DNA from: an uncultured Bacteroidia bacterium
GTDB taxonomy: Bacteria; Bacteroidota; Bacteroidia; J057; CALLMJ01
NCBI GenBank assembly: GCA_938005475.1
Contig: CALLNY010000020.1
Location: forward strand, 1-42,868
Length of the DNA stretch: 42,868 bases
Direction of reading: 5' to 3'
Shown here piece by piece: positions 32,714 to 36,391 of the stretch. Positions within the stretch are counted from its first letter, which is position 1, and the number at the start of each line of letters is the position of its first letter. The position numbers were made by a program, and so were the translations under genes. Under the pieces are notes generated by a model, which saw nothing but the letters and a program-made list of their open reading frames with translations, had not been told where the DNA came from and did not search any database.

Positions 32714-34561
32714 TTACATTCTATTGATAACCTGAATGCCTAATAAATTTAAGGCTACTTTTAAAGTTTCAGCTACTTGGTGGCTCATAAAGAGTTGGAA
32801 TGCTTTCTGGGGGTTCTCTTCGAATAAAATTTTATGATTTTGGTAAAATGTGCTATATAATTGTGCAAGTTCTAAGGCATAATTGGCAATGAGAGAAGGA
32901 TTATATTGTTCAGCGGCAAGAAGTAGCGTAGACTGAAATTTGCTTAAATGAAGGCATATTGATTTTTCTGTTTCATGAAGTTGTGTAAGGGGAAAGGTAA
33001 TATTTTTCCATAGAAAATTCAAAGAATTCGCTTTTGCCAGCAAACTTTGAATGCGTGCGTAAGTATATTGAATAAAGGGAGCGGTGTTACCTGTAAAGTT
33101 AATGGATTCTTGGGGATCAAAAAGGATTTTTTTGATTGGTTCAATTTTGAGTAAGAAATACTTCAAGGCACCTAAACCTAGGGTATCATAGAGATTATGA
33201 AGTTCGTCGGGAGGTAGTCCTTCGGTTTTACCGAGTTCTTGGGAAGTTTCACGAGCTATATTATACATTTCTTGGATGAGGTCGTCAGCATCTACAACGG
33301 TTCCTTCGCGAGATTTCATTTTTCCTGTGGGGAGTTCCACCATACCATAAGACAAATGATACATACCTTCTGCGTGGGGTACGCCTAATTTTCGGCATAT
33401 GGAAATGAGTACTTTCATGTGGTAATCTTGTTCATTTCCAATGACATAAACCGAGCGGTTCATATTGTATTCTTGAGCTTTAAGAAAAGCCGTTCCAATA
33501 TCTTGAGTGATATATACGGAGGTACCATCTGAACGTAGCACTAGTTTATGGTCAAGACCTTCTTGGGATAAATCTATCCAGATAGAGCCGTCGGGCTTTT
33601 GATAAAAAATACCTTGTTCAAGCCCCTTCATCACCCACTGCTTGCCTAAAAGATAAGTTTCAGACTCATAATAAAATTTATCAAAGTGAATATTTAAACG
33701 TTCATAGGTTTGTTCAAAACCATCATAGACCCATTGGTTCATTTGTTGCCACAGCTCACGGATTTCAGGGTCATTTTGTTCCCATTTTTGAAGCATCTCA
33801 CGTGCTTGTTTACCAAGTTCACTATACCTATTAAAATATTGGTCTTTATATTCTTTGAAAAAAGTGCTTTCATTTAAAGAAGGATTGTTTTTTTGGGCTT
33901 TTTCAAATAAGTTTTTCGCAATATCAGATTGTTGCCACTCTTTATATTCTTCTTGAAAACGTTTTTCAAATTCTACGTAATATTTTCCGACGAGGTGGTC
34001 TCCTTTTAATCCAGTATTTTGCGGAGTTTCTTGGTTACCGAAGCGTTTCCATGCCAACATAGATTTACAAATGTGGATACCTCTATCATTGACTAAACAA
34101 ACCTTAATAACTTTATAGCCAAGGAATTCATAAATTCTACTAATGGAGTCACCGAGAAAAATGTTTCGTAAATGTCCAAGATGCAAAGGTTTATTCGTGT
34201 TCGGAGAGGAGTATTCAATCATTATTGTTTGATGGTTTACTTGAGGGATGTTTTGGGGACTGTAATTTAGTAAGAAATCTACCCAGAAGGAAGGTTTAAG
34301 GGATAAATTTAGGAAGCCTTTAATGATTTCAAAATGCTCAAAAATTGAATGCTTTTGCAATAGGTGGCTACCGATAAGGTTACCAATTTCTTGGGGGCTT
34401 CCGATTTTGAGTTTAAGAAGCGGAAATAAAATGATGGTAAGGTCACCCTGGTGATCAGGGTTAGTATATTCAACAGAAAGCGTTTGAGGATCAATGGATT
34501 GGTGATAGTGTTCATAAATAATTTGTGCTACCCAACTTTGTAATTGCGATTTAAGAATCAT
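32714..34561 (-). CDS. argS: arginyl-tRNA synthetase
   Basis: 615 residues, class I synthetase that charges tRNA-Arg. The N-terminal Add-1 domain (about 1-110) is followed by SSPNTNKPLHLGHLRN, the HIGH motif in its HLGHL form. The TGKMKSREGTVVDADDL stretch replaces the canonical KMSKS, as is usual in Bacteroidota ArgS. A C-terminal anticodon-binding helical bundle starts near residue 490 (NTAPFIQYTYARIQSLL) and ends in ALNLLGIQVINRM, the typical ArgS terminus. A TATTTTTG box lies 19 nt upstream. Between that promoter and the preceding gene sits a candidate RNA gene on the same strand. The DAO-family gene is directly downstream. Confidence 0.96.
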   Translation of the reverse strand: MILKSQLQSWVAQIIYEHYHQSIDPQTLSVEYTNPDHQGDLTIILFPLLKLKIGSPQEIGNLIGSHLLQKHSIFEHFEIIKGFLNLSLKPSFWVDFLLNYSPQNIPQVNHQTIMIEYSSPNTNKPLHLGHLRNIFLGDSISRIYEFLGYKVIKVCLVNDRGIHICKSMLAWKRFGNQETPQNTGLKGDHLVGKYYVEFEKRFQEEYKEWQQSDIAKNLFEKAQKNNPSLNESTFFKEYKDQYFNRYSELGKQAREMLQKWEQNDPEIRELWQQMNQWVYDGFEQTYERLNIHFDKFYYESETYLLGKQWVMKGLEQGIFYQKPDGSIWIDLSQEGLDHKLVLRSDGTSVYITQDIGTAFLKAQEYNMNRSVYVIGNEQDYHMKVLISICRKLGVPHAEGMYHLSYGMVELPTGKMKSREGTVVDADDLIQEMYNIARETSQELGKTEGLPPDELHNLYDTLGLGALKYFLLKIEPIKKILFDPQESINFTGNTAPFIQYTYARIQSLLAKANSLNFLWKNITFPLTQLHETEKSICLHLSKFQSTLLLAAEQYNPSLIANYALELAQLYSTFYQNHKILFEENPQKAFQLFMSHQVAETLKVALNLLGIQVINRM

Positions 34562-34580
34562 GAAGCATTAGATTTGGTAA

Positions 34581-34588
34581 CAAAAATA
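34581..34588 (-). promoter_or_regulatory. -7 promoter box of argS
   Basis: TATTTTTG on the minus strand, 19 nt before the argS ATG at 34561 and about 40 nt past the end of the candidate RNA. argS therefore need not depend on the RNA promoter. Confidence 0.55.
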
Positions 34589-34627
34589 GAGGAAAATTTG
34601 TAATTGTAAGATATAAAAATTAAAATA

Positions 34628-34828
34628 GCGTGTGGTTTGATTGGGTTTTTTGATAGCTCCAATCAAGATAGGATTTAAGAGCGTCTATAGCTTTGTAATC
34701 TTCCGTGTAATAACCATTGAAGGTAATTCTTACAAACCTTTTATGAAAGGTTGAAGCCCGCCATTGCTATAGGAATATCTCTATATGATTATTCGTTTGA
34801 AGCTCAAAAAACGAATATTCCCACACGC
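34628..34828 (-). ncRNA. candidate structured small RNA, class not recognised (~201 nt)
   Basis: The RNA would be read on the minus strand from about 34828. The first eight bases GCGUGUGG (34828-34821) pair perfectly with the last eight, CCACACGC (34635-34628), and T-rich sequence (TATTTTAATTTTTATA) follows. Inside are a 9-bp 5' hairpin (34809-34817 with 34790-34798), a long-range stem of seven pairs plus one G-U (34766-34773 with 34684-34691) enclosing a 7-bp hairpin (34735-34741 with 34746-34752), and an 8-bp 3' hairpin (34659-34666 with 34637-34644). Both outer hairpin loops contain the self-complementary AGCU, so a kissing contact is possible. No open reading frame of note is present. Size recalls 6S RNA but the branched fold does not; tmRNA, SRP and RNase P signatures are absent. 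Confidence 0.65.
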
Positions 34829-34833
34829 CATTA

Positions 34834-34863
34834 CAAAGTTAGCTATTATTGCATTAAAATCAA
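34834..34863 (-). promoter_or_regulatory. -33/-7 promoter of candidate small RNA
   Basis: On the minus strand TTG (34863-34861) and TAACTTTG (34841-34834) are spaced by 19 nt, the full Bacteroidota housekeeping promoter. The first base of the RNA closing stem lies 6 nt past the box, where transcription should begin. No gene start lies in this position, so the promoter must serve an untranslated RNA or a very long leader. The remaining ~80 bp up to 34942 show nothing else. Confidence 0.7.
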
Positions 34864-34942
34864 AAAATCTTTTAAATTATTTTTTTGATTTTATCAACAT
34901 TTCTAAATAACCGCTAGTACTGCTTGTTGATAAGTTCTGAAT

Positions 34943-36391
34943 TTAATCTTTTACCAACTTTTGATAATATTTAGCATTCAACGTTTCTATACACAAAATG
35001 TATAGCCCAGGGAGTTGATTGCCCAAATCTATTGGAAAAATGGGATTACTTCCAAGGGAACATTTATTGAAAAAAACTAGTTGCCCTAACGAGTTGGTAA
35101 TTTTAATGTAAAAGGATTTATCAGAAACGGGCAATGTGGTTAAATCTAAATGAAACAAACCATCAGACGAGGGATTAGGGAAGACTTTAATAGGATGGAA
35201 AGCAAAATGGAAGTTTTTAATGGTGGGTTGTAAGATTTTACAGACCCCAGTAGCATGAGTAAGAATATTATGTTGCGTAAAAGTGCCATCTCCAAGTTGC
35301 CCGGAAGCGTTTCTACCACAAGCCCAGAAGGTTCCGTCTTTCTTATACAAGAGAGTAAAATTAGTACCGAGCGCTACTCCCGCAACGTCATGGTTGTTTA
35401 ACATAGGAGTAGGAGAGTTTCTTTGGATTACATCGTCCGTGCCGAGGTTTCCATAAGTATTTCTTCCCCAAGCCCAAGCTGTGCCATCATTTTTGACGAC
35501 CACAGTATGGAAAGCACCACAAGCCGCAATATGAGTAGCATCCTTGAAGTTAGGAACTTGTATGGGAATATTTTTATCAGAGGTTGAGCCATCGCCGAGT
35601 TGTCCGTATAGATTTTGTCCCCAAGTCCAGACGGTGCCGTCCGCTTTAATTGCCAACGAATAAAAACGCCCAGCCGCAATATGAAGGATGTTATTTAGAC
35701 CATGCACTTGAACGGGGGTGTTGCTATCCAAATTAGCACCATTACCGAGTTGCCCGTAAAGGTTATCTCCCCAAGCCCATACGGTACCATCGCTTTTTAG
35801 AGCAAGCGTATGGTAGGTTCCAGCCGCAATCTGAATGACACCATTTAAATTAGGTACTTTTGTAGGAATGGTTCTATCGGTAGTGGAACCATCACCGAGT
35901 TGCCCATCTTGGTTCCAGCCCCAAGCCCATACGGTACTGTCCTCTCTCAAAGCAACAGAATGCCAACCGCCCGCTGAAATGGCTTTTACATTGTTCAACA
36001 ATAAGGTTTGTACAGGACTTTGTGTACTGTTATTAGTGCCTGAGGTTCCGTTTCCTAGAGCTCCATAGAGGTTACTGCCCCAACACCATACAGTCCCATC
36101 TGCTTTAAGTGCCATAGAATGAGCTTCAAGTTGGTCTCCTCCAGCTGAAACTGCTATTACACCGTCTAATCCCATCACTTGAACAGGAACATTGCTATCG
36201 TCCGTAGAATAATTGCCTAACTGTCCTGAAGCATTCTCTCCGAACGCTCTTACTGTACTATCTTCACAAACAACCAAAGAGTGCCAGCCTCCTGCCGCAA
36301 TCGTTTGACCACAAACATACTCGCTCGCAGTCATTATTACTATTACAATCCATAATATAGTAACTTGCTTAATATTTTGATTTGACAACAT
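34943..36391 (-). CDS. secreted seven-repeat RCC1 beta-propeller with T9SS sorting domain
   Basis: 482 residues. A signal peptide (about 1-28) leads into seven RCC1-type repeats of ~50 residues each, following the scheme AAG-x-HSLALK-x-DGTVWAWG-x-N-x-x-GQLGDG. This is exactly one seven-bladed propeller (about 30-385). The last ~80 residues (IKVFPNPSSDGLFHLDL ... LPGLYILCI) are a T9SS type A sorting domain. Bacterial secreted RCC1 proteins are probably binding or adhesion modules; no catalytic site is visible, and the nuclear Ran-exchange role of eukaryotic RCC1 does not apply. The gene starts 21 nt after the TonB receptor stop, so it is probably co-transcribed and could help capture that receptor's substrate (inference). 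Confidence 0.9.
   Translation of the reverse strand: MLSNQNIKQVTILWIVIVIMTASEYVCGQTIAAGGWHSLVVCEDSTVRAFGENASGQLGNYSTDDSNVPVQVMGLDGVIAVSAGGDQLEAHSMALKADGTVWCWGSNLYGALGNGTSGTNNSTQSPVQTLLLNNVKAISAGGWHSVALREDSTVWAWGWNQDGQLGDGSTTDRTIPTKVPNLNGVIQIAAGTYHTLALKSDGTVWAWGDNLYGQLGNGANLDSNTPVQVHGLNNILHIAAGRFYSLAIKADGTVWTWGQNLYGQLGDGSTSDKNIPIQVPNFKDATHIAACGAFHTVVVKNDGTAWAWGRNTYGNLGTDDVIQRNSPTPMLNNHDVAGVALGTNFTLLYKKDGTFWACGRNASGQLGDGTFTQHNILTHATGVCKILQPTIKNFHFAFHPIKVFPNPSSDGLFHLDLTTLPVSDKSFYIKITNSLGQLVFFNKCSLGSNPIFPIDLGNQLPGLYILCIETLNAKYYQKLVKD

Follow-up and report, generated by a model that had tools for sequence, protein, structure and literature searches.

Introduction

6S RNA is the small RNA by which bacteria keep their main RNA polymerase in reserve. 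When the downstream helix of E. coli 6S RNA opens, a 9-bp hairpin in the 3′ strand of the bubble drives release, and B. subtilis 6S-1 RNA has a comparable hairpin, the collapse helix (PMC8876501). 6S RNA has also been detected in Flavobacterium psychrophilum (PMC9723704) and, together with two classes of pRNA, by dRNA-seq in Bacteroides (PMC7366714). Besides the 6S family RF00013, Rfam holds 6S-Flavo (RF01685) and Bacteroidales-1 (RF01693), the latter with the description "6S-Bacteroidales RNA suggested"; the Rfam table lists RF01685 and RF01693 without a common clan.

Here we analyze a segment upstream of argS in the genome of an uncultivated Bacteroidia species, located in a stretch of 42,868 nt that we refer to as the window. 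A preliminary description had taken this segment for a freestanding structured RNA gene, either specific to Bacteroidota or encoding a divergent 6S RNA. Our results support the second of these guesses, by matches to RF01693 and to a model of our own as well as by a rod-like fold with covariation, and we conclude that the segment is very probably a single-copy, divergent 6S RNA gene (ssrS). The gene is thus of a known kind, a new and divergent 6S member that has escaped standard annotation.

Results

Locus, promoter and ends of the RNA gene

The intergenic gap 34562-34942 contains no ORF of at least 80 aa and is flanked by two minus-strand genes, argS (32714-34561) and a gene with RCC1 repeats (34943-36391) on the side away from argS. 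The product of the latter combines RCC1 repeats with a Por secretion C-terminal sorting domain and is probably a type IX-secreted RCC1-repeat protein. Upstream of argS, the minus strand reads directly as the promoter TTG-N19-TAACTTTG that had been noted before, with no gene behind it, composed of a -33 element TTG (34861-34863) and, 19 nt from it, a -7 element TAACTTTG (34834-34841). The -7 element fits TAnnTTTG, the -7 consensus of the Bacteroidota primary sigma factor (PMC7366714). In the sister species of the same genus, TATTTTTG lies 2 nt ahead of the model start and is preceded by TTG at similar spacing, and a TAnnTTTG box thus stands right at the 6S gene start in both genomes.

The closing stem is formed by a 5′ arm GCGTGTGG (RNA: GCGUGUGG; 34821-34828, minus strand) and a 3′ arm CCACACGC (34628-34635, minus strand), the perfect complement of 34828-34821. 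Both the 8-bp stem, with its arms 193 nt apart, and the T-rich end were confirmed by sequence, and pairing of the stem is found in 63 relatives. On the minus strand, CTATTTTAATTTTT directly follows the 3′ arm, within a U-rich 3′ end (34610-34627, minus strand) that is a candidate terminator and where the family consensus is GUGCGGGUUUUUUU. The gene, of about 200-210 nt, extends over 34620-34829 of the minus strand, as judged from a full-length match to model R2 (see below) and the RF01693 match at 34776-34665. Like other 6S genes, expected to be freestanding and about 180-210 nt long, it gives one significant match per genome, has a promoter and a U-rich end by sequence, and lies between other neighbors in the sister genome. 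The earlier proposal of an independent gene for a structured RNA, behind a promoter of its own, is right.

Rfam and covariance-model searches

Searching Rfam at curated cut-offs revealed no family anywhere in the window, while below them the outcome was positive: a permissive search of the segment yielded RF01693 (32.6 bits, E 7e-4), which does not reach the gathering score of 60 bits, and in a whole-genome RF01693 search this locus was the best match (E 0.0012; next 0.24). The alignment to the window contains the RF01693 core motifs AAUGGCGGGC and GAUUACaAAG with the flanking stem. RF00013 (cut-off 46.4 bits) has no match in the whole genome, and RF01685 (cut-off 85 bits) none at this locus. 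Other sub-threshold Rfam matches in the segment (S774, Bacteroides-1, mir-308) had E-values above 5 and were discarded as chance. The sister genome carries a copy that is 83% identical over 223 nt (blastn) with a full-length RF01693 match; it is the only real blastn match among 40 relatives, all others being A+T-rich noise.

Among 295 genomes of the class, RF01693 matches 22 at E 0.01, 8 of them above the cut-off; in the order of the window it matches three, none above the cut-off. Model R1, built from an alignment of 17 members including the window, found one match in each of 16 of the 22 genomes of the order and in each of 89/295 of the class (strict filters), and thus recovers members missed by Rfam. 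In several other families of the order, no genome was matched convincingly by R1 or R2, the latter a model built from 41 R1-found loci, none from the window's genus. On the whole genome, R2 recognized the window RNA with 69.4 bits (E 5.3e-9; next match E 1.2), and the sister RNA with 74.6 bits; alignment A3, from which R2 was built, was guided by the window-containing R1, so that these scores are slightly circular, whereas the RF01693 match is free of that. The R2 match to the window RNA covers the full model and is confined to the minus strand. An RNA on the plus strand, whose fold has a z-score of -4.0 compared with -4.9 for the minus strand, was rejected.

Locus L050, which holds the same RNA as L087, gives a sub-threshold match to RF01693 and matches RF01685 with 96.8 bits, above the cut-off of that family. 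RF01685 and RF01693 hence overlap through intermediates and are probably one family.

Gene neighborhood

Of the 63 family members, 26 have a gene for the cell-division protein ZapA immediately upstream in the same orientation, and in 25 of the 26 the RNA gene is followed immediately by rny, which encodes RNase Y. In E. coli MG1655 the gene order is zapA-ssrS-fau, and the zapA neighborhood common to E. coli and the Bacteroidota RNA supports common descent with classical 6S RNA. This neighborhood, a supporting but not a defining feature of 6S genes, is absent from the window. In the window genome, only about 26 nt separate zapA from rny (G000:C101, locus L214: 1776-1441 and 1414-2, minus strand), and this gap holds no RNA. 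Since the two genes nearly abut, while the RNA sits by argS, we infer that the 6S gene has moved away from the zapA locus to the argS side.

Upstream of 34 of the 63 6S genes, a boxA-like box (GTTCTTT, GCTCTTT, GTTCATT) occurs within 80 nt, compared with 4% expected by shuffling; bearers are, e.g., L087, L096, L104, L105, L108, L110 and L116, and the window and L058 have none. In zapA-linked loci the box lies mostly just past the zapA stop codon (within 80 nt in 19/26, farther upstream in six more). In five sampled genomes, 16S rRNA is preceded at about 107 nt by similar GTTCTTTGA..TATTG boxes. These motifs suggest that 6S RNA is often a product of read-through out of zapA, with antitermination of the rRNA type; our literature search found no paper joining boxA, 6S RNA and antitermination. 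The leader between zapA and 6S varies in length, because in L093 an inverted-repeat element (CCCGTCATTGCGAGGGATACCGAAGCAATC...) is inserted between zapA and the RNA, which the close relatives L091 and L094 lack.

We also considered whether the RNA could be a Bacteroidota-specific structured RNA of other function, the 6S label of Bacteroidales-1 being wrong. RF01693 is indeed labeled as "suggested" 6S, and the general 6S model does not recognize the sequence; yet the rod with its central bubble (described below), the single copy, the overlap with 6S-Flavo through L050, the zapA linkage as for E. coli ssrS and the detection of 6S RNA with pRNAs in Bacteroides (PMC7366714) make this very improbable.

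Fold and covariation

The minus-strand RNA folds with -55.3 kcal/mol compared to -36.1 ± 3.9 kcal/mol for shuffled sequences, none of 200 being as good. The supported fold is a 6S rod with an asymmetric central bubble between P2, the downstream duplex, and the terminal arm (all on the minus strand). P2 pairs a 5′ strand GUUUUUUGAGCUUCAA (34797-34812) with a 3′ strand UUGGAGCUAUCAAAAAAC (34645-34662), based on the minimum free energy rod, pairing in 63 relatives and compensatory changes relative to the sister. The 5′ side of the bubble (34773-34796) is unpaired in the consensus and, judging by other 6S RNAs (PMC8876501), would be the region where pRNA starts; the 3′ side GCUCUUAAAUCCUAUCUU (34663-34684) aligns with Bacteroidales-1 CUCAAAUCuUGU. 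The terminal arm (34685-34772), with the stem CUAUAGC/GCUAUAG and small hairpin caps, is backed by the RF01693 and R2 alignments and by covariation, and contains the conserved cores CAAUGGCGGGC (34766-34756) and GAUUACAAAG (34700-34691).

Alignment A4 comprises 63 members including the window. Across its 28 consensus pairs, 91.3% of the cells are standard pairs, compared with 69.8% after shuffling of the 3′ letters and 31-52% after shifting the partners by 1-3 columns, figures to be read in light of A4 being fitted to the structure, which favors paired cells; a comparable result had already come from the initial alignment, made by MAFFT alone (89.4% versus 39-49%). Changes on both sides, which had been set beforehand as a test, occur in 27 of the 28 pairs. 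The closing helix is 100% paired, each of its pairs having changed on both sides, and P2 is 96.1% paired. In the window, P2 reads GUUUUUUGA-GCUUCAA with UUGGAGC-UA-UCAAAAAAC, and its core is AGCU/AGCU (the GCUU/GAGC part) versus ACCU/AGGU in the sister; with pairing read by hand, two pairs differ in both bases and one in a single base. The fold of the window RNA and A4 thus agree on a rod of closing stem, P2, large central bubble and terminal arm, with covariation, which supersedes the earlier view that the RNA has a branched fold different from the 6S rod.

Alternative hairpins

Two hairpins compete with P2. The alternative 5′ hairpin AUUCGUUU/AAACGAAU (34791-34816, minus strand; stem 34816-34809 with 34798-34791) holds the P2 5′ strand in its loop, and the alternative 3′ hairpin UUGAUUGG/CCAAUCAA (34637-34666, minus strand; stem 34666-34659 with 34644-34637), a candidate release hairpin, is predicted to form once the P2 5′ strand is blocked, as pRNA would do. 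Both loops contain AGCU. Since these loops hold the two strands of P2, the outer hairpins exclude the helix. Energies predicted for the two states are -55.3 kcal/mol for the rod and -52.9 kcal/mol for the two-hairpin form, about 2.4 kcal/mol weaker; P2 has a pair probability of 0.90, the hairpins one of about 0.05. The two AGCU-loop hairpins of the preliminary description thus exist, but their branched arrangement is not the minimum, and its AGCU:AGCU kissing contact turns out to be the two strands of the P2 helix, whose pairing is kept through both-sided changes relative to the sister.

In the sister and most order-mates, other stem sequences form a hairpin whose loop likewise holds the P2 5′ strand. 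Compared with shuffled flanks, it reaches p <0.05 in 9/15 sequences of the order and 10/63 overall. Hairpins whose stem includes the P2 3′ strand are enriched within the order (9/15) and less so outside (10/47), both counts ignoring relatedness. A 3′ hairpin whose loop holds the P2 3′ strand was found only in the window's genus and dismissed as an order-wide feature.

That the RNA functions mainly in the branched fold with its AGCU kissing contact could be argued from the existence of both hairpins, the conservation in form of the 5′ one within the order and the small energy gap to the rod. Its low pair probability, the near-complete pairing of P2 (96%) in 63 relatives, of which only ten have a significant 5′ hairpin, and the location of the P2 3′ strand in a hairpin stem in order-mates, where no loop-loop contact is possible, nevertheless leave it highly unlikely. 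By analogy with the hairpins of other 6S RNAs, the branched fold is best viewed as a competing conformer, probably the released one. Speculatively, and with rather low confidence, 6S RNA in this order may act as a bistable switch between P2 and a hairpin pair capturing both of its strands, which a short pRNA would flip cooperatively; for the window's genus, this would leave the two strands of P2 in loops that could still kiss. We know of no such intermediate from other 6S RNAs.

Independence from argS

A cis-regulatory argS leader, T-box-like or an attenuator, would fit the location of the RNA, which precedes argS by about 60 nt in the same orientation, but we regard it as very improbable, considering that the sister RNA is flanked by genes for a methyltransferase (PF05430) and a penicillin-binding protein/transglycosylase (PF00912), that the RNA is absent from the fetched flanks of 68 argS loci from other members of the Bacteroidota (one with a 77% identical protein) and hence has no conserved position ahead of argS, that argS has its own promoter-like TATTTTTG box (34588-34581, minus strand, 19 nt before its ATG), and that T-box and other leader families do not match. 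The RNA is thus very probably no argS leader, a role that had been named in advance as a refuting finding.

Discussion

By analogy with 6S RNAs tested elsewhere, we propose the following course of events. Sigma-A RNA polymerase would start at TTG-N19-TAACTTTG and produce an RNA of about 200 nt, which is predicted to fold into a rod whose asymmetric central bubble may mimic an open promoter, the arm carrying the Bacteroidota cores AAUGGCGGGC and GAUUACAAAG. This rod would bind and sequester the housekeeping sigma-A holoenzyme. On the return of nutrients, the holoenzyme would synthesize a short pRNA that starts on the 5′ side of the bubble and extends into P2; pRNA synthesis would open P2, whereupon the freed 3′ strand could fold as the 3′ hairpin UUGAUUGG/CCAAUCAA, with release of the RNA to follow.

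Our findings show that 6S RNA persists, in one copy, in lineages where curated cut-offs report none; in the order of the window, R1 finds it in 16/22 genomes as opposed to the three of RF01693. Furthermore, they favor placing Bacteroidales-1 and 6S-Flavo together in a single 6S family of Bacteroidota, for whose common descent with classical 6S RNA the zapA linkage common to E. coli provides independent support. The window genome itself would represent a case of a relocated 6S gene behind its own promoter.

Compared with known systems, the window RNA resembles Bacteroidales-1 (RF01693) in the cores AAUGGCGGGC and GAUUACAAAG, in a bubble element resembling CUCAAAUCUUGU, in the presence of closing stem and P2 and in its length class; it differs by scoring 32.6 bits against the cut-off of 60, by extra sequence in the terminal arm and by other sequences of closing stem and P2. 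With 6S-Flavo (RF01685) it shares the same architecture and is linked through L050, which matches both families, although the RF01685 model does not match the window RNA. Finally, unlike the 6S RNAs of E. coli and B. subtilis, the window RNA has no RF00013 match, a Bacteroidota-type promoter and a location away from the zapA locus, but it shares with them the rod of closing stem, P2, central bubble and terminal arm, a hairpin able to form when P2 opens and, at the level of the family, the zapA-6S neighborhood.
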